Assembly: GCA_958295905.1 (NCBI GenBank)
Contig: OY282382.1
Coordinates: forward strand, 4,832,910 to 4,896,909
DNA from: an uncultured Vicinamibacterales bacterium
Lineage (GTDB): Bacteria > Acidobacteriota > Vicinamibacteria > Vicinamibacterales > UBA8438
Reading direction: 5' to 3'
DNA: 64,000 nucleotides
In this document: positions 8,809 through 15,309 of the stretch, in pieces
How positions within the stretch are numbered: the first letter of the stretch is position 1
Layout of the letters: every line of letters begins with the position of its first letter
Notes under the pieces: model-generated
Databases searched by the model: none
What the model was told of the DNA's origin: nothing
What the model saw: the letters and a program-made list of their open reading frames with translations, nothing else
Position numbers and translations under genes: made by a program

Positions 8809-8827
8809 GCGCGACTTGGTGTCGCGC
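8809..8827 (+). promoter_or_regulatory. Hairpin/operator-like inverted repeat before the first peptide gene
   Basis: GCGCGAC (8809-8815) and GTCGCGC (8821-8827) form a perfect 7-bp inverted repeat with a 5-base spacer, ending 8 bases before the AAGGAGG of the first peptide gene. The sequence TGGTGTCGCG at 8817-8826 recurs at 9821-9830 before the fourth peptide gene. A shared regulator site or mRNA structure is possible. Confidence 0.45.
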
Positions 8828-8846
8828 AAGACCAAGGAGGTCAACC

Positions 8847-9092
8847 ATGACAACGCGAAAAATACTGGCGTCGGCCACGCTCGCCGCACTCCCGCTCGTC
8901 GTCGGAGCCATGCAGGCCGGCCCCCCCCGCGGCGCGGCGGACGCGGCACGCACGCGCCACGCCATCGAACGCCCGAGCGGCCCCCAATGGACCTACGCGA
9001 CATGGGGCGACCTGGAAATGACGGCCTTCGCGGCCGGCTTCACGGAAGTCGTGACGGGGTGCTGGCTGTCTGGAGTGGCCGCGGCACTGTAG
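8847..9092 (+). CDS. Secreted small peptide 1 of a four-member paralogous family
   Basis: 81 residues, with a strong AAGGAGG site six bases before the ATG. The N-terminus is a Sec-type signal peptide (basic MTTRK, hydrophobic LASATLAALPLVV, then GAMQAGP). A polar linker with ARTRHAIERPSGPQW is shared with peptide 3. The C-terminal part from residue 49 is variable, hydrophobic and glycine/alanine-rich with one cysteine (C72). A conserved leader with a divergent core is what one expects of a bacteriocin or other modified-peptide precursor. No named family is recognised. It is the first gene of the peptide-transporter cluster. Confidence 0.7.
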   Translation: MTTRKILASATLAALPLVVGAMQAGPPRGAADAARTRHAIERPSGPQWTYATWGDLEMTAFAAGFTEVVTGCWLSGVAAAL

Positions 9093-9135
9093 TCATCCCA
9101 CGGCCCGGCATTTCACACCGACACGGAGGTCACCC

Positions 9136-9396
9136 ATGAAAACACGAACCACGAGGACACGAAGGCTGCTCGCGGCGGCGACCCTGGCCGCCCTCCCGCT
9201 CTTCGCCGGGGCCGGACAGCCCGGCCCCCACCGGACCGCCGACGACGCCGACCGCACGCGGCACTTCACCGAACGACCGGGCGGCCCGAGGGCGCTCTAC
9301 TGGGCGGGGGTGGATGCAGAAACCGCGAGCTTCGTATACGCGGTGTCGGGGTCGGACGCGGGCGGCAGGGTATTCGGATTTCTCGTCTCGCTGTAG
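9136..9396 (+). CDS. Secreted small peptide 2 of the paralogous family
   Basis: 86 residues, with CGGAGGT before the ATG. The signal peptide (TRRLLAAATLAALPLFAGAG) is nearly identical to that of peptide 3, and the linker keeps DRTRHFTERPGGP. The core (residues 53-86) lacks cysteine, unlike the other members, but is again Gly/Ala/Val-rich and ends in GFLVSL. It lies 43 bases after peptide 1 and 45 before peptide 3, consistent with one transcript. Function is unknown. The loss of cysteine argues that a disulfide or thioether is not essential in every member. Confidence 0.65.
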   Translation: MKTRTTRTRRLLAAATLAALPLFAGAGQPGPHRTADDADRTRHFTERPGGPRALYWAGVDAETASFVYAVSGSDAGGRVFGFLVSL

Positions 9397-9441
9397 GTCC
9401 ATCGCGCGGCCCGAGGCCGCACAGACACCAGGAGATCACTC

Positions 9442-9684
9442 ATGAGAACACGAAGACTGCTCGCGGCGGCAACGTTGGCCGCACTCCCGCTCGTCGCCGG
9501 AGCGCTGCAAACCGGCCCCATCCGGGCGGCGGCCGAGGCCACCCGCACGCGGAACGCCCCCGAACATCCGAGCGGCCCGCAATGGAACTATATCGTGGGG
9601 GAATCGGGGCACCTGCCCTCCCTGTTCGATTGCAGCTTGCGGAGGGGGTGGGGCGCCGCCGGTTGCTCGCTCATGGCCCTCTAG
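9442..9684 (+). CDS. Secreted small peptide 3 of the paralogous family (CSxxxGxGxxxC core)
   Basis: 80 residues, with AGGAG before the ATG. The signal peptide is MRTRRLLAAATLAALPLVAG, then the linker TRTRNAPEHPSGPQW, matching peptide 1. The core contains CSLRRGWGAAGC (C64 to C75, ten residues between), which has the same spacing and pattern as peptide 4. A disulfide or another cross-link between the two cysteines is an inference. It is followed by a 187-base gap before peptide 4. Confidence 0.68.
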   Translation: MRTRRLLAAATLAALPLVAGALQTGPIRAAAEATRTRNAPEHPSGPQWNYIVGESGHLPSLFDCSLRRGWGAAGCSLMAL

Positions 9685-9814
9685 CCGGCGGCGACAACGC
9701 GGCGGGCGGCGTCGAGCGAACGGGCGCACGACAGGCGAACGTGACGGCCTGAGAGCGCCCACGCGCCGACCCCGAGCCTGCCGTCGAACGCGGGCAACCC
9801 CGAGGCTCGAATAC

Positions 9815-9867
9815 GCGGCATGGTGTCGCGTACGGCGCGGCATGGTGCCGCGTATAACATAGGAGGT
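9815..9867 (+). promoter_or_regulatory. Direct repeat and hairpin before the fourth peptide gene
   Basis: GCGGCATGGTGTCGCGTA (9815-9832) is repeated with one change at 9837-9854. The second copy forms a hairpin (CGCGGCA-TGG-TGCCGCG, 9836-9852). The first copy shares TGGTGTCGCG with the site before peptide 1. The repeats end just before a TATAAC and the AGGAGGT ribosome site of peptide 4, so a repressor or attenuator acting on the downstream genes is plausible. Confidence 0.45.
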
Positions 9868-9871
9868 AATC

Positions 9872-10159
9872 GTGCAGAGACGAAGACTACTGGCCACCGC
9901 AACGTTGACCGCGCTCCTGCTCTCGATCGGGACCCTGCCGACGGCCCCGGCGGGAACAGCGGCGGAACCCGCGTCCCACACGCAGCCGGCCGCGCCCCAC
10001 GCGCCGTGGACGGCGGACGGCCCGGCCGCTCCGCAATGGGGCGCCGCGTTCGGTTTCGACACCGAGGAATCGTTCTGGTGGAGTGTCGCCGGCGCGATCG
10101 TCTGCTCCTTTTTCACGGGACCGGGCGGCATCGCCTGCGGCGTCGCTGGAGCGGCCTAG
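9872..10159 (+). CDS. Secreted small peptide 4 of the paralogous family (CSxxxGxGxxxC core)
   Basis: 95 residues starting with GTG, with a perfect AGGAGGT just upstream. The signal peptide is MQRRRLLATATLTALLLSIG. A longer Ala/Pro linker ends in PAAPQW, the equivalent of the SGPQW junction of peptides 1 and 3. The core is strongly hydrophobic, with SFWWSVAGAIV followed by CSFFTGPGGIAC (C78-C89) and a Gly/Ala tail. Such a core could insert in membranes like a class II or circular bacteriocin. It directly precedes the SpoIIM-like gene, which suggests it is a substrate of the transporter. Confidence 0.7.
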   Translation: MQRRRLLATATLTALLLSIGTLPTAPAGTAAEPASHTQPAAPHAPWTADGPAAPQWGAAFGFDTEESFWWSVAGAIVCSFFTGPGGIACGVAGAA

Positions 10160-10199
10160 CCACAAACGCAGGGCAGTGAGCGCTTGAACGAAGAAACGG

Positions 10200-10781
10200 A
10201 TGTGCGACATGGGCAGACTCGACAAATGGTCCCGATCGTGGTCGGTGCTGCTCGCAGCCAACGTCCTGCTCTTCGGACTCACCGCCTGCGCCGGCTGGGT
10301 CAGCGCCGATCTCCGGGGAGAACAGCTTCGGGTGCATCCGCTCGCCGACGTGACCGGCGACCGCATCCACTCGGACGCCGCCTACATCCTGCGCGGCAAC
10401 CTGCGGGTCGCCGCCGGCATGCTGGCGGGGGCGTGCACGCTGGGGCTGTTCTCCCTCGTCGGGCTGCTCTACAACGGATTCGTGCTGGGGTACGGCCTGT
10501 CCGCGCTGAGCCGCGGCGCGGCCGAGATCCTGCCGTTTCTGGCCAGCTACGTGCCGCTCGAGTTCCTGGCGTTCATTCTCGTCGTCACCGCCTCCCAGCA
10601 TCTGTCGTTCGGGGTTGTCCGCTGTCTGGCGACCGGCGAGGCGGTGCGGCCCCGGGCCGGCGCAGCCAGCCTGATCGCGGCCGGGGCGCTGCTGGTCGTC
10701 GCGGCCGTCGTCGAAGCGAGCGTGATACCGGCGATTGCGGCGGTCGCCGGGCAGGCGCCGCCGATAGGAGGCACCCCTTGA
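10200..10781 (+). CDS. SpoIIM/DUF95-like integral membrane protein
   Basis: 193 residues with about five hydrophobic segments: residues 14-34, 76-100, 105-120, 125-145 and 155-180. The order of helices and the segment FLASYVPLEFLAFILVVTAS resemble the stage II sporulation M / DUF95 family. Members of that family occur in circular-bacteriocin clusters, where they take part in maturation, secretion or immunity together with an ABC ATPase. The organism is not expected to sporulate, so a transport or immunity role is more likely. The stop codon overlaps the TTG start of the ABC ATPase. The start ATG has only a weak ribosome site; ATG at 10209 is an alternative. Confidence 0.65.
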   Translation: MCDMGRLDKWSRSWSVLLAANVLLFGLTACAGWVSADLRGEQLRVHPLADVTGDRIHSDAAYILRGNLRVAAGMLAGACTLGLFSLVGLLYNGFVLGYGLSALSRGAAEILPFLASYVPLEFLAFILVVTASQHLSFGVVRCLATGEAVRPRAGAASLIAAGALLVVAAVVEASVIPAIAAVAGQAPPIGGTP

Positions 10782-11662
10782 GCAACGACATCGTCCTCGA
10801 ACTCGTCGACATCCGGCGCCGGTTCCCCGGCTTCGAGATGGGTCCCCTGTCACTGAAGCTGCGACCGGGCCGCATCTACGGCCTCCTCGGGCCGAACGGC
10901 GCCGGGAAGACCACGCTGCTCGACCTCGTCGCGCTGCAGCTCAAGCCCACCGCCGGCGCCCTAAGAGCGGGCGGGACGCCCCTGCGGTGGGGGTCGCGCG
11001 ACTGGAAGGCAAGGCTCACCTACGTCCGCGAGGTCGTCCCGTTCTACGACGAGCTGACGGTGGCCGAGACACTGAGGCTGGCGTCGCGGCTCTACGACCG
11101 CTGGGACCCGGCCCTGGCCGCGCGACTCGCCGACACCCTGGAGCTGCCCCCGGACCGCCGGGTCGGCAGGCTCTCCAAGGGCACGAAGGTCAAGCTCGGC
11201 ATTGCGAGCGCGCTGGCGCACCACGCCGACCTGCTGCTGCTCGACGAGCCGACCGCCGGTCTGGACCCCACCGTCCGGGCCGGCGTCCAGGCCGTCGTCC
11301 GTGATCTCGTCGTGGAGCACCCGCATCTGTGCGTCGTGCTCTCGTCGCACATCTTCGAGGACGTCGAAGAGACGGCCAGCGACATCCTGATACTGCGAAA
11401 CGGCCGCTTCGCATTCCAGGCGACGGCCGAAGTCCTGCGGGCATCGAAGCTGTACCGCACCGCCGCGGCGGACGCCGTGGGCCCGTCGCCGGACCTCCTG
11501 GCCCGCTGGACACGGAAGGAGACGGCGTGGCTGCTCGTGCTCGGAGACAGCGCCCTCGACGCTGACCTGCGGCAACGTTCCGATCATGTCGAGGACAACC
11601 CGGCGAGCCTGCTCGCAGCCGTGTATCACGGCGCCGGACACACACGTGGAGACAATCGATGA
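10778..11662 (+). CDS. ABC transporter ATP-binding protein
   Basis: 294 residues. The start is a TTG whose last two bases overlap the SpoIIM stop (TTGA), with AGGAG eight bases upstream at 10766-10770. Motifs are Walker A GPNGAGKTT (near residue 37), a Q-loop-like region before VPFYDELTVAETL, a signature LSKGTKVKLGIA in place of LSGGQ, Walker B LLLLDEPTAGLDP and the switch SSHIFEDVEE. The pattern is that of ABC-2 type exporters that move peptides or lipids, with a C-terminal extension of about 70 residues. Its partner permease follows with an ATGA overlap. Export of, or immunity to, the four peptides is inferred from position. Confidence 0.9.
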   Translation: MSNDIVLELVDIRRRFPGFEMGPLSLKLRPGRIYGLLGPNGAGKTTLLDLVALQLKPTAGALRAGGTPLRWGSRDWKARLTYVREVVPFYDELTVAETLRLASRLYDRWDPALAARLADTLELPPDRRVGRLSKGTKVKLGIASALAHHADLLLLDEPTAGLDPTVRAGVQAVVRDLVVEHPHLCVVLSSHIFEDVEETASDILILRNGRFAFQATAEVLRASKLYRTAAADAVGPSPDLLARWTRKETAWLLVLGDSALDADLRQRSDHVEDNPASLLAAVYHGAGHTRGDNR

Positions 11663-12315
11663 AACCAGGACCGCTCTGGGTGCTGATGGGCAAAGACCTC
11701 CGATTGCACGGCCTGCCGCTCATGCTGGTCGCGGCCGGCGTGCTCGCGAGCTGCGCCCTCGCGATGCGCTTCGCGCCCCATACCGGTGCAGTCACCGGGT
11801 TCGTGTTCAACGTGAACATGCTCATGGCGCTGCTCCTGACCGAGTGGTTGATCGCACGCGAACGGGCGGCGCGCTCCTTCGCCTGGCTGCGCACGCTGCC
11901 CTTGGACGATCGCGCCCTGGTCGTCGCCAAGTTCCTGCTGGCGGCCGTGTTCTGCGTGATGCTGTGGACGGTGTCCTCCGGACTGTTCGCCCCCACGCTG
12001 TGGTCGCCTTGGGGTACCGGACTGGTGCTCCAGTGCAGCCTGCTCGTGTTCGGCGCCCTCTGCCTCGGGGCCCGGTGGCGCATCAACTGGCATTACGCCC
12101 ACCTGGCGCCGCTGGCGGTCATGGCCGCGCCGGTGCTGCTGTTCACGGTGTTCGCGGGCGACGACACGGCGCGGCGGGCCGCGCTCACGGCGCTGTGGAA
12201 CGCGCCGTACGGCCGCCCGCTCGCGGCCGGCGGTCTGCTGCTGCTCTACCTCTCGGTAGTCTGGACCACCGTACGTTGGGTCGAGCGCGCCGACACGTAC
12301 GAGTTCGTCGACTGA
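11659..12315 (+). CDS. ABC-2 type permease-like membrane protein
   Basis: 218 residues with about six hydrophobic segments: residues 18-37, 48-66, 90-112, 122-138, 148-168 and 190-208. The arrangement, with a polar N-terminus and a cytoplasmic loop containing LIARERAARSFAWLRTLPL, resembles ABC-2 permeases (ABC-2 subunits commonly have EKExGTLE at this point). It overlaps the ATPase gene by 4 bases and should form the membrane part of that transporter. Confidence 0.75.
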   Translation: MKPGPLWVLMGKDLRLHGLPLMLVAAGVLASCALAMRFAPHTGAVTGFVFNVNMLMALLLTEWLIARERAARSFAWLRTLPLDDRALVVAKFLLAAVFCVMLWTVSSGLFAPTLWSPWGTGLVLQCSLLVFGALCLGARWRINWHYAHLAPLAVMAAPVLLFTVFAGDDTARRAALTALWNAPYGRPLAAGGLLLLYLSVVWTTVRWVERADTYEFVD

Positions 12316-12336
12316 CTTCGCGATCGGAGCCCGACC

Positions 12337-13005
12337 ATGCCCACGCTGTTCTGGAGTCCGGTTCGTTTCTTCGAGACCCGCCGCGCCAACGGCCTGCACT
12401 GGGTCACGGCCGCCGGCGCGCCGGCCCTGTGCGCCGCCCTGCAGGCCGCCGCCGGCTTGATCAACAGCGCCAAGATCCTCCCCGCGCTGGAGGAGGCGAT
12501 CGCGATCCTCGAAGTCCCGTTCCCCGATTTCCCGCTGCGAAGCATGGCATTCGCCGCGGGTCTGATGGGTTACCCGATGTTCTTCGGCATGCTGTTTCTC
12601 GCCATGCTGGCCCTCGACATTCTGGCCAGCGGGTCGGAACAGCCGCGTCTGCTGGCGAAGTTCACGGCGATCAGCTTCTACACCCAGGTGCCGTGGTGCA
12701 TCGTGATGCTCGCCATCGCGTGGTACTGGACGCCGGCGCCGCTGCGCCTGCCGGTGGGCGCCTCCGAGGCGGAGATCATGGATCAGGTGGGTCGCTACCA
12801 GATGACCGCCCGGTCGGGACCGCTGATGTCGACGGGACGGCTGCTGGAGTACTACTCCCTGCTCTGGCTCTCGGCGGTGCTCGCCGTCGCCCTCAAGGTG
12901 GTCGGATCGCTGTCCGTCCGCGCCACCGTCGTGGTCGGCATCGTCCTGGCCGCCGTCTGCCTGGCGGGGCCTATCGCCAACCTGATGCTGCAAGCGCTGC
13001 GATGA
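12337..13005 (+). CDS. Multi-pass membrane protein, Yip1-like
   Basis: 222 residues with about five membrane segments and a soluble loop around residues 40-60 and 145-165. The opening FWSPVRFFETRRANGLHW resembles proteins of the Yip1 superfamily found beside bacterial ABC exporters. It follows the permease by 21 bases and overlaps the next gene by four bases (ATGA). It may be a second transporter subunit or an immunity protein; the sequence does not decide this. Confidence 0.65.
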   Translation: MPTLFWSPVRFFETRRANGLHWVTAAGAPALCAALQAAAGLINSAKILPALEEAIAILEVPFPDFPLRSMAFAAGLMGYPMFFGMLFLAMLALDILASGSEQPRLLAKFTAISFYTQVPWCIVMLAIAWYWTPAPLRLPVGASEAEIMDQVGRYQMTARSGPLMSTGRLLEYYSLLWLSAVLAVALKVVGSLSVRATVVVGIVLAAVCLAGPIANLMLQALR

Positions 13006-14222
13006 CCGACCCGCTCCGGCGGCATGCCGAACGCGCCGGGTTCGCCGAGGCGCCGGCCGACCTGACCTTCGACGCCGAACGCGACCACCCTCGACTCGTG
13101 GGGGCCGTCGCGCACCGGTGCCCGCCCATTCGCGCGATCCTGGCCGGCCTGCGGCGGCGGCTGCCCGTCGCCCGAAACGCCGGCGAAGGGGTCACCGGGC
13201 AGTTCTACCGGCTGCCCGGCCACTACCGGAGCGTCTGCTGCGCCATCCCCGACCTCGGTGACCCGGAACGCCTGTGGGAGGGCGACGTCATCGTCATCGA
13301 GGGCGCCGAACCGTTGATGCCCGATTTCGACGGCTACCTGCGCTGGATGCTGTCCACGCCGTTCCCGGACAGCGATCTCCCGATCGGGCTGCACTTCCCG
13401 CTCGTCGCCGGCACTCCGCCCGGCGCGGCGCCGCTGGACGAATGCGAGCAAGCCCAACGGCTGGCGGCGGCGCTGCACGAACGGCATCTGACCCTTTATG
13501 GCGAGCTGGCCCGGGCGCCGGTGCCGCTGGCGGTGCACCGATGTTCGGCGGAAGACACGGCGCGCTACATCGAGACCCTGCGGTGGCGCCTGCCCCGACA
13601 GGCCTTCGAACGGGCCGAGGCGCGCGTGCGCAAGGGATGCGGAGTCTCGGTGTGGCACTACCCCGCGGCCCCGATCCGCGTCGACGACCTGCGGATCCTG
13701 GCCGCCGCCGCCCCGCACCTGCGGGCCGCTCCGGAAGCCGGCGAGGAGACCATCGCCGGCTGGTGCCGCCAGTTCTCCCGGCTGCTGCATCTGGGATTCA
13801 TGCCGTTCGCACCCTGGAACGCCGGCCGCGGATCCTGCGTGGATCCCGGCAGTGCGTGCATCGACGGCGGATTCGCGGACCTCTTCACGTTGGTGCCGTT
13901 CGATTCGATACCGGACGACCGGTGGTTTCGGCGCAGCCTGCTCGACAGCGTCCGGAGGCTGTCGCAGACGGTGTCGGTGTTCGCGGTCTCGCTCGGCGCC
14001 GAACCGGCCGGTCCGCCCGACCCGAGCCTCGATTCGTTGACCCGGGTCTTCCTGGGTCCCCGGCTGCTCGAACACCTCGAGACGGAGATGCCGGCGGGGG
14101 CCGCGCTCGATTCCCGAATCTCGTCCTGCTTCAGACTCGACCGTCTCGAAGACCTGGTCGCCGCGAGTGCGGAGGCCCCGCCGCCGTTCCTGCCCTACCG
14201 GCCGGCCCAAGCCGCCGAGTGA
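13002..14222 (+). CDS. Cys-rich 406-aa protein of unknown family in the peptide cluster
   Basis: 406 residues, soluble, with no signal peptide and no membrane segment. I do not recognise the family. It holds at least ten cysteines, several in motif-like positions: VCCAIPDLGD (near residue 72), HRCSAEDTARYIETLRWRLP, RKGCGVSVWHYP, and near residue 280 RGSCVDPGSACIDGGFADL. The last block, preceded by FMPFAPWNAG, vaguely recalls an Asn and Asp-Gly arrangement of kinase-like active sites, but this is weak. It ends the operon of peptides and transporter, so a peptide-modifying or regulatory enzyme is the main hypothesis. Coupling to the upstream gene by ATGA supports a common role. Confidence 0.6.
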   Translation: MTDPLRRHAERAGFAEAPADLTFDAERDHPRLVGAVAHRCPPIRAILAGLRRRLPVARNAGEGVTGQFYRLPGHYRSVCCAIPDLGDPERLWEGDVIVIEGAEPLMPDFDGYLRWMLSTPFPDSDLPIGLHFPLVAGTPPGAAPLDECEQAQRLAAALHERHLTLYGELARAPVPLAVHRCSAEDTARYIETLRWRLPRQAFERAEARVRKGCGVSVWHYPAAPIRVDDLRILAAAAPHLRAAPEAGEETIAGWCRQFSRLLHLGFMPFAPWNAGRGSCVDPGSACIDGGFADLFTLVPFDSIPDDRWFRRSLLDSVRRLSQTVSVFAVSLGAEPAGPPDPSLDSLTRVFLGPRLLEHLETEMPAGAALDSRISSCFRLDRLEDLVAASAEAPPPFLPYRPAQAAE

Positions 14223-14589: not shown

Positions 14590-15309
14590 ATGGCTGCACG
14601 CGACGTCGACGCCGAACCCGCCTCCGGACTCGACGATCCCCCGGATTCCCGGACCGACGCGGCCACGGCGCGCCACCGGTCGATCGGCCTGTGGCTGGTC
14701 ATGGCCGCCCTCGGCCTGTGGCTGGGCGTGATGCTGTTCATGGTGGGCCCCTTCTCTCCGGGCAATCCGGCGGAGGAGCCGGGCACCGGCGCTTCCGCCC
14801 CCGGAACCGCCCCCGCCCCGGCCGATGCCGGGGCAGCGCGATCGTCTTCCCGCCGATCCGCCCGGCCGCGCCTGATTCCCGTCCCGCGACGCGACCCCGC
14901 GCCGGGCTTCGCCCTGCCCGACATGGACGGGGGCACTGCGACCCTCGCCGACTACTCGGGGCGGGTCCTGCTGCTCAACTTCTGGGCGACTTGGTGCCTG
15001 CCATGCCGGGCGGAGATGCCCTGGTTCGTCGAGTTTCAGACGGCGTTCGAGGGCGACGGCTTCGCCGTGCTCGGAGTCTCGGTGGACGAGCCGGGCCGTG
15101 ACGTCGTCGCGCCGTTCCTCGATCGGTCGCCCGTCAACTACCGAATCGCCCTGGCCGACACCGAGGCGCGGCTCGCCCCCTTCGGCCCCAAGAACGTGCT
15201 GCCCACGACTTGGCTGATCGACAGGCGGGGCCGGATTGCGGCCGAGCACGTCGGGCTGGTGAGCCGCGCGGCGATCGACGCCGAGATCCGCCTGCTGCTG
15301 GACGAATAG
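14590..15309 (+). CDS. Membrane-anchored TlpA/ResA-like thiol-disulfide redoxin
   Basis: 239 residues from the ATG at 14590. A cytoplasmic N-terminus of about 35 residues is followed by one membrane segment (LWLVMAALGLWLGVMLFMVG, about 37-56), then a Pro/Ala/Ser linker and a thioredoxin-fold domain from about residue 105. The active site is WATWCLPCRAEMPWF (CxxC), and the cis-proline loop is VLPTTWLIDRRG. It should act outside the cytoplasmic membrane as a thiol reductant, for example in cytochrome c maturation. No ccm genes are nearby. It is followed 30 bases later by pyrC. Confidence 0.88.
   Translation: MAARDVDAEPASGLDDPPDSRTDAATARHRSIGLWLVMAALGLWLGVMLFMVGPFSPGNPAEEPGTGASAPGTAPAPADAGAARSSSRRSARPRLIPVPRRDPAPGFALPDMDGGTATLADYSGRVLLLNFWATWCLPCRAEMPWFVEFQTAFEGDGFAVLGVSVDEPGRDVVAPFLDRSPVNYRIALADTEARLAPFGPKNVLPTTWLIDRRGRIAAEHVGLVSRAAIDAEIRLLLDE

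Follow-up and report, generated by a model that had tools for sequence, protein, structure and literature searches.

A candidate bacteriocin-type cluster for two-cysteine secreted peptides, with a predicted SelO-fold accessory protein, in uncultured Vicinamibacterales

Introduction

What is made by a locus in which four short, leader-bearing genes stand in front of a SpoIIM gene, an ATP-binding cassette (ABC) transporter and a 406-residue protein? The question is posed by an uncultured Vicinamibacterales bacterium of the Acidobacteriota (assembly GCA_958295905.1; 6.3 Mb in 3 contigs), in a stretch of 64,000 nucleotides referred to here as the window (contig OY282382.1, positions 4,832,910 to 4,896,909 of the forward strand). 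An initial annotation, made from the letters alone, described a candidate new peptide-export system recalling circular bacteriocins. On balance, and with moderate confidence, the locus is here interpreted as a bacteriocin-type secreted-peptide cluster making disulfide-linked peptides, in keeping with that annotation's suggestion of bacteriocin-like peptides, and its sequence features suggest that the product is probably a new kind of two-cysteine peptide. By similarity, the membrane genes (SpoIIM, ABC and Yip1) form a kit already known from circular-bacteriocin clusters, so that a wholly new export system is not supported; the precursors match no known family.

The gene cluster

Nine genes, all on the forward strand, occupy positions 8847-14222 of the window, four precursor genes being followed by five larger ones. 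Every gene proposed earlier is present, in the order given then:

8847-9092, forward strand: pep1, precursor with leader MTTRKILASATLAALPLVVGA, core from GPQW, one Cys; a genus-specific paralogue of pep4
9136-9396, forward strand: pep2, precursor with a leader of the pep1 type, core after GGPR, Cys-free
9442-9684, forward strand: pep3, precursor with a leader of the pep1 type, core from GPQW, two Cys, 5 residues beyond the last Cys
9872-10159, forward strand: pep4, the precursor that is conserved, starting at GTG, with core WGAAFGFDTEESFWWSVAGAIVCSFFTGPGGIACGVAGAA; genera g1, g5 and g8 and genomes G033 and G026 have orthologues immediately upstream of SpoIIM
10200-10781, forward strand: SpoIIM (DUF95) membrane protein; Pfam PF01944, E 9.9e-14, 52 bits against a cut-off of 26.9
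10778-11662, forward strand: ABC ATPase, PmtA/DrrA/GldA-like, its TTG start overlapping the SpoIIM stop; PF00005 (ABC_tran), E 4.7e-26, above cut-off
11659-12315, forward strand: ABC-2-type permease; PF13346, E 2.1e-5, 24.6 bits, just below the cut-off of 25
12337-13005, forward strand: Yip1-like membrane protein, kept across clusters; PF04893, E 2.8e-4, 21.2 bits, below the cut-off of 28.6
13002-14222, forward strand: c406, a 406-residue accessory protein with a predicted SelO/kinase fold, from the model of a homologue (YdiU/SelO Z 12.7/12.1)

The 4-base overlaps reported for the larger genes occur at the SpoIIM/ABC, ABC/permease and Yip1/c406 junctions, but the permease and Yip1 genes are 21 bases apart. 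The cluster genes look real: their layout is repeated in two sister species in which the cores have diverged, a purine-rich stretch resembling a Shine-Dalgarno sequence precedes each of pep1 to pep4, third-position GC is 0.81-0.83, and nonsynonymous divergence (dN) falls below synonymous divergence (dS) in most comparisons. Nor is the likeness among the four leaders a matter of chance, because a profile of pep4 orthologues, searched against the whole 6.3-Mb genome, picked out pep1, pep2 and pep3 (E 8e-10 to 3e-13), while no other match in it reached E <= 1.

Precursor peptides

In the precursors a basic n-region, a hydrophobic stretch and A-x-A-like sites were made out by eye, hydrophobicity having served only as a search filter. 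The leader is common to all four, as had been described, but a linker ending in (G/A)PQW is found in three of them, with GPQW in pep1 and pep3 and APQW in pep4; pep2 has GGPRALYW at this place. The cysteines earlier ascribed to the cores are likewise unevenly spread, with two in pep3 and two in pep4 but one in pep1 and none in pep2. Ten residues separate the two cysteines of pep4 and six follow the last. Within the genus of the window (g1), the cores of the paralogues diverge and the leader is held. Compared with one sister species, the first 24 codons of pep2, which cover the leader, gave proportions of nonsynonymous and synonymous differences of 0.10 and 0.71 (pN and pS), indicating purifying selection; the pep4 core gave dN 0.26 against dS 0.82 (dN/dS about 0.3-0.5) and the pep4 leader and linker a dN slightly above dS, all of these values being rough, with few codons and some highly diverged pairs.

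The most regular feature of the precursors lies at the C-terminal end. Orthologues of pep4 in related genomes are 89 residues long, with cores of the type GPQWAYAFGMEGEEALAFG....AIxCxFFGxxGGIACGxTGAL, and all 16 precursors adjacent to SpoIIM or Yip1 (pep4 and its counterparts) contain a Cys pair with exactly six residues beyond the last Cys. These 16 cores are hydrophobic, with net charges of -3 to +1. Measured from the conserved Trp, the core is about 33-52 residues long (lengths of 51 for L014 and L068 are overstated, an upstream Trp having been taken, and become 40 from the aligned Trp), and the stretch after the leader, somewhere within which cleavage would fall, is often about 60-70 residues.

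Conservation within the order

The SpoIIM-ABC-permease-Yip1-c406 block is kept in three genera of one family (g1, g5 and g8), with a pep4 orthologue directly upstream wherever the contig reaches far enough; pep1, pep2 and pep3 were seen in g1 only. Clusters that lack c406 but have one or more peptides with SpoIIM, ABC, permease and Yip1 genes occur in G033, which belongs to another family of the order, and in G026, of genus g9. The cluster of G015 (genus g7; L067 1-1700) is decayed: the precursor core carries an in-frame TGA, SpoIIM is kept, the ABC, permease, Yip1 and c406 genes are gone, and a sequence resembling an extracytoplasmic function (ECF) sigma gene lies next to it. Searching the order with a Yip1 profile revealed further clusters in g6, g9 and f4/g86. 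In each, SpoIIM or Yip1 is adjoined by a different small precursor gene that has a Shine-Dalgarno-like sequence and whose leader resembles a signal peptide. These precursors have little or no sequence similarity to pep4. Gene order in f4/g86 (G161) is peptide-Yip1-SpoIIM-ABC-permease, and the g6 and G022 clusters have no ABC pair directly alongside. Two other Yip1 matches, L106, adjoining cytochrome c maturation-like genes, and L108 (E 2e-4), were rejected as clusters.

Over 162 genomes of the order, with thresholds of E < 1e-5 for the peptide and E < 1e-30 for the Yip1 cluster, the two were found together in 10 genomes, the peptide without the Yip1 cluster in 1 (the decayed G015) and the reverse in 4. 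Fisher's test gives p = 4e-12, a figure that overstates the strength of the association, phylogeny having been ignored and the genomes being related. Two of the four Yip1-only genomes (G024, G025) are cut by contig ends and two (G007, G020) have divergent precursors. The expectation that peptides and transporter-side genes would travel together is thereby borne out. The opposite outcome, peptides widespread without transporters, which would have told against the initial annotation, is lightly touched by two orphan genes, for peptides that share this leader, in each of the sister species G002 and G001 (L069 1699-2251, L070 8201-8801). Over 396 genomes of the phylum, the peptide profile gave only weak matches outside the order, most with internal stops; the one open match (L074) had no cluster genes. 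A plasmid collection contained no Yip1 match, generic ABC ATPases being all that matched.

In genus g6 (L103 5453-10001; L104, on the minus strand), a peptide-SpoIIM-Yip1 group lies between a pilin-like gene and a gene for a VKOR-DsbA-like fusion, followed in L103 by a prepilin-peptidase-like gene.

Comparison with known systems and alternative explanations

Clusters of head-to-tail cyclized bacteriocins consist of a precursor gene, sometimes in several copies, with SpoIIM and a transporter and often Yip1 (PMC8659200). The same combination of small precursors, SpoIIM/DUF95 and ABC genes is shared with the clusters of AS-48, leucocyclicin Q and pumilarin, and precursor, SpoIIM and transporter stand together here as they do there; the resemblance pointed out in the initial annotation is made stronger still by Yip1, which is often present in those clusters (PMC8659200). 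The differences lie in the diderm Acidobacteriota host, the Sec-like leader, the short and mostly neutral or anionic core with its Cys pair, and the additional predicted SelO-fold protein. Known circular bacteriocins are 58-70 residues long without cysteine pairs (PMC7132975), and their hosts are Firmicutes, Actinobacteria and Thermotogae (PMC8534725). The cluster was not filed with them because a Cys pair is present, in pep4 and in all 16 of the precursors adjacent to SpoIIM or Yip1, and no precursor-family match was found in Pfam or NCBIfam at E <= 1; by analogy it may still work like a circular bacteriocin. No description of this family was found in the literature searched; bacteriocin clusters of antiSMASH classes are mentioned for Acidobacteriota, in general terms, by one metagenome study (PMC8692599).

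A different likeness is to SDP of Bacillus subtilis. SDP, whose partner genes are SdpA, SdpB and SdpI, is exported by Sec, and its product is hydrophobic, about 40 residues long and disulfide-linked. The Sec-type leader and the hydrophobic, disulfide-linked product of about 40 residues envisaged here are alike by description; the partner genes differ and no homology is claimed.

Several findings weigh against a bacteriocin-type cluster. Positive selection on the cores was sought by dN/dS and not found, the pep4 core staying below 1 with no sign of an arms race, and the cores are mostly neutral or anionic, unlike most antimicrobial peptides. Neither Pfam nor NCBIfam assigned the precursors to a bacteriocin or other family, bacteriocin models being considered at E <= 1. 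The leaders can be called Sec-like on a judgement by eye. The window cluster has no dedicated protease and no recognisable immunity gene, and no SpoIIM or ABC gene was recognised near the orphan peptides of L069 and L070, both species also carrying the cluster. The pilin-like genes adjoining the g6 clusters would fit a non-toxin role equally well; the VKOR-DsbA-like fusion gene downstream in two g6 clusters was counted in favour of disulfide-linked, bacteriocin-type products.

A new subgroup of true head-to-tail cyclized bacteriocins, in which a SpoIIM-containing complex would cyclize the core (conserved Trp to C-terminal Ala or Leu) and a disulfide would staple it further, is considered unlikely. 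The gene kit is the same, Yip1 included (PMC8659200), most cores have hydrophobic residues at both ends, and the fixed length beyond the last Cys in 16 of 16 precursors is as expected for a C-terminus that takes part in a reaction. However, the size of known members and their lack of cysteine pairs (PMC7132975), their phyla (PMC8534725) and the want of a family match for the precursors all point the other way, and a ring of 40 residues would be unusually small. Improbable, too, is a class of signalling or surface-active peptides resembling phenol-soluble modulins, exported by the ABC transporter without killing. Here the NCBIfam scan of the cluster is relevant, in that it matched ATPase families only, all far below their cut-offs, with PmtA the best (131.8 bits against an equivalog cut-off of 350); the several related peptides and their anionic cores would also agree. 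ABC ATPases of this broad class, however, match many NCBIfam families. Phenol-soluble modulins are leaderless and Cys-free, whereas the cluster peptides have leaders and a Cys pair, and no receptor or sensor gene is found in the cluster. The PmtABCD modulin exporter and the LanFEG-type lantibiotic-protection transporters do share the ATPase class and a separate ABC-2 permease with the present cluster, which differs from them in its low ATPase scores, its SpoIIM and Yip1 partners and its leader-bearing precursors. About as improbable is an envelope or pilus role, in which the peptides would be small structural or regulatory envelope proteins inserted with the help of SpoIIM and Yip1. The g6 loci, with their pilin-like, VKOR-like and (in L103) prepilin-peptidase-like neighbours and no ABC pair directly alongside, suggest it, but a patchy distribution (a strong Yip1 match in 14 of the 162 genomes), gene decay in G015, divergence of the paralogues in g1 and the failure to see any pilus genes near the window cluster argue against it.

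Proposed route of maturation

For the favoured bacteriocin-type cluster with disulfide-linked products, the precursor would open with a Sec-type leader and end in a core that is hydrophobic, rich in glycine and about 33-52 residues long, in most cases with a variable linker between the two; the Cys pair and fixed six-residue tail belong to the conserved form. The leader would engage Sec and would probably be cut by leader peptidase near an A-x-A-like site during export, in the periplasm the two cysteines would probably oxidise to a disulfide, and the core would be freed by a further cleavage close to the conserved (G/A)PQW. SpoIIM, the ABC ATPase, the ABC-2 permease and Yip1 are proposed as machinery for maturation, export and self-protection because the same kit is believed to act in this way in cyclized bacteriocin clusters; in the case of leucocyclicin Q, loss of the DUF95 protein left the mature bacteriocin inside the cells (PMC7132975). 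The ABC-2 transporter might either export the peptide or clear it from the producer's own membrane, and c406 may act on the precursor, by modifying or recognising it, or may have a regulatory part in the system. The analysis establishes the gene content and its conservation, the co-occurrence, the pattern of cysteines and C-termini and a predicted fold, whereas secretion, the disulfide, the second cleavage, an antimicrobial action and any role for c406 are inferred. A PADLOC run on five of the proteins gave no defence match.

The 406-residue protein

The initial annotation placed c406 in no known family, and at the level of sequence this holds, with no Pfam or NCBIfam family assigned to the window protein or its relatives; a predicted fold can nevertheless be named. 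A weak Pfam match to VMAP-M18 (E 0.03-0.04, in 2 of 10 members) was rejected as chance. The AlphaFold2 model of the window protein was poor (mean predicted local distance difference test score, pLDDT, of 45), too unreliable for use, although many kinases stood among the non-significant matches that Foldseek listed for it. The homologue at L022 (G036; 34% identical to c406), modelled from an 11-row alignment, reached a pLDDT of 71.5 and a predicted template modelling score of 0.78. Foldseek with this model found no match at E <= 0.001, the leading entries being kinase-fold proteins and YdiU. Re-ranking of that list with VIA-align placed YdiU (9jym) at Z 12.7 over 236 residues with a root-mean-square deviation of 4.1, Pseudomonas SelO (6eac) at 12.1, SbnC at 9.8, and protein kinases at 9.2 and below; the top seven matches (Z 10.7-12.7) were SelO/YdiU entries and one titled 'uncharacterized protein'.

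SelO/YdiU proteins (PF02696) have a kinase fold and act as AMPylases or UMPylases. The c406 homologue shares their predicted fold and an IDGG motif, similar to DYG, whose Asp is invariant in the c406 family, but likeness at the sequence level is absent: the PF02696 profile gave no match at E <= 10 for 10 c406 members, and hhalign against six true SelO proteins from relatives returned a probability of 0.2%. The TDN-type loop is also missing, the HGVMNTDN of SelO being replaced by a GFMPFAPWN-type sequence (this and the other motifs of the protein were assigned by eye). The Lys of a KGTEP motif is present in g5, g8, g19 and a Burkholderia homologue but is Glu in all three g1 species, the window included; the g1 form may be altered or inactive, despite a dN/dS of 0.26-0.33 for the gene that indicates purifying selection. 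SelO retains Lys, Glu, Asn and D(Y/F)G and lacks the HRD aspartate (PMC3281104); the full set of beta-3 Lys, alpha-C Glu, TDN-loop Asn and DYG Asp is not found in c406. The protein is thus predicted to be of the SelO fold, and may or may not be active. The description of c406 as Cys-rich does not survive comparison, Cys79 and Cys286 (window numbering) being the only cysteines invariant among close relatives and none remaining so once the Burkholderia homologue is included.

In the clusters of the order c406 is accessory: it is absent from some (G033, G026), and it is present without peptides in two relatives and in a Burkholderia nonribosomal peptide synthetase (NRPS) locus. In the two relatives, both of genus g19 (L022 5683-11269; L071 5484-10844), the homologues adjoin FemAB/GNAT-like and zinc-ribbon protein-kinase-like genes. 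The Burkholderia stagnalis homologue (26% identity, E 2e-13) lies on plasmid NZ_CP156686.1 in an unannotated biosynthetic locus (L125 5153-18637), in the order citramalate-synthase-like gene, asparagine-synthase-like gene, c406 homologue and a gene for a 2831-residue NRPS-like protein. Across 396 genomes of the phylum nothing was found beyond the order, and viral contigs held no relative.

It is rather unlikely, although the most far-reaching possibility, that c406 founds a new class of SelO-fold peptide-modifying transferases acting on Sec-leader two-Cys precursors, which would make the cluster a new class of ribosomally synthesized and post-translationally modified peptides in which a SelO-like tailoring enzyme is paired with the export kit of circular bacteriocins. 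Two hints of tailoring are the longer linker before the core, seen only in genera with c406 (Trp at about 50-56 against 34-37, among alignable precursors of few genera), and the position of the distant Burkholderia homologue between asparagine-synthase-like and NRPS-like genes.

Neighbouring genes

Signals for a sigma-70 promoter or a terminator did not rise above chance. A thioredoxin gene lies downstream of the cluster:

14590-15309, forward strand: TlpA-like thioredoxin, a resident neighbour judged to lie outside the system; copies 55-66% identical occur in related genomes in which the cluster is absent or decayed

As a disulfide partner of the cluster this thioredoxin was rejected, and the gene is treated as a neighbour, because relatives without the cluster or with a decayed one also carry it. 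In g5 and g8 the interval from the cluster to the TlpA gene holds an ECF sigma gene; no such gene was recognised in g1, and it is left out of the cluster.

Significance

In published surveys, SpoIIM-dependent circular bacteriocins belong to Gram-positive phyla and Thermotogae (PMC8534725, PMC8659200), and the same kit is now seen in an uncultured diderm order. The rule of six residues after the last Cys provides a handle for mining further clusters, and the clusters themselves offer a test of the roles of SpoIIM and Yip1 in maturation. To find the SelO fold at work among peptide genes would, if true, be an unexpected use of it.

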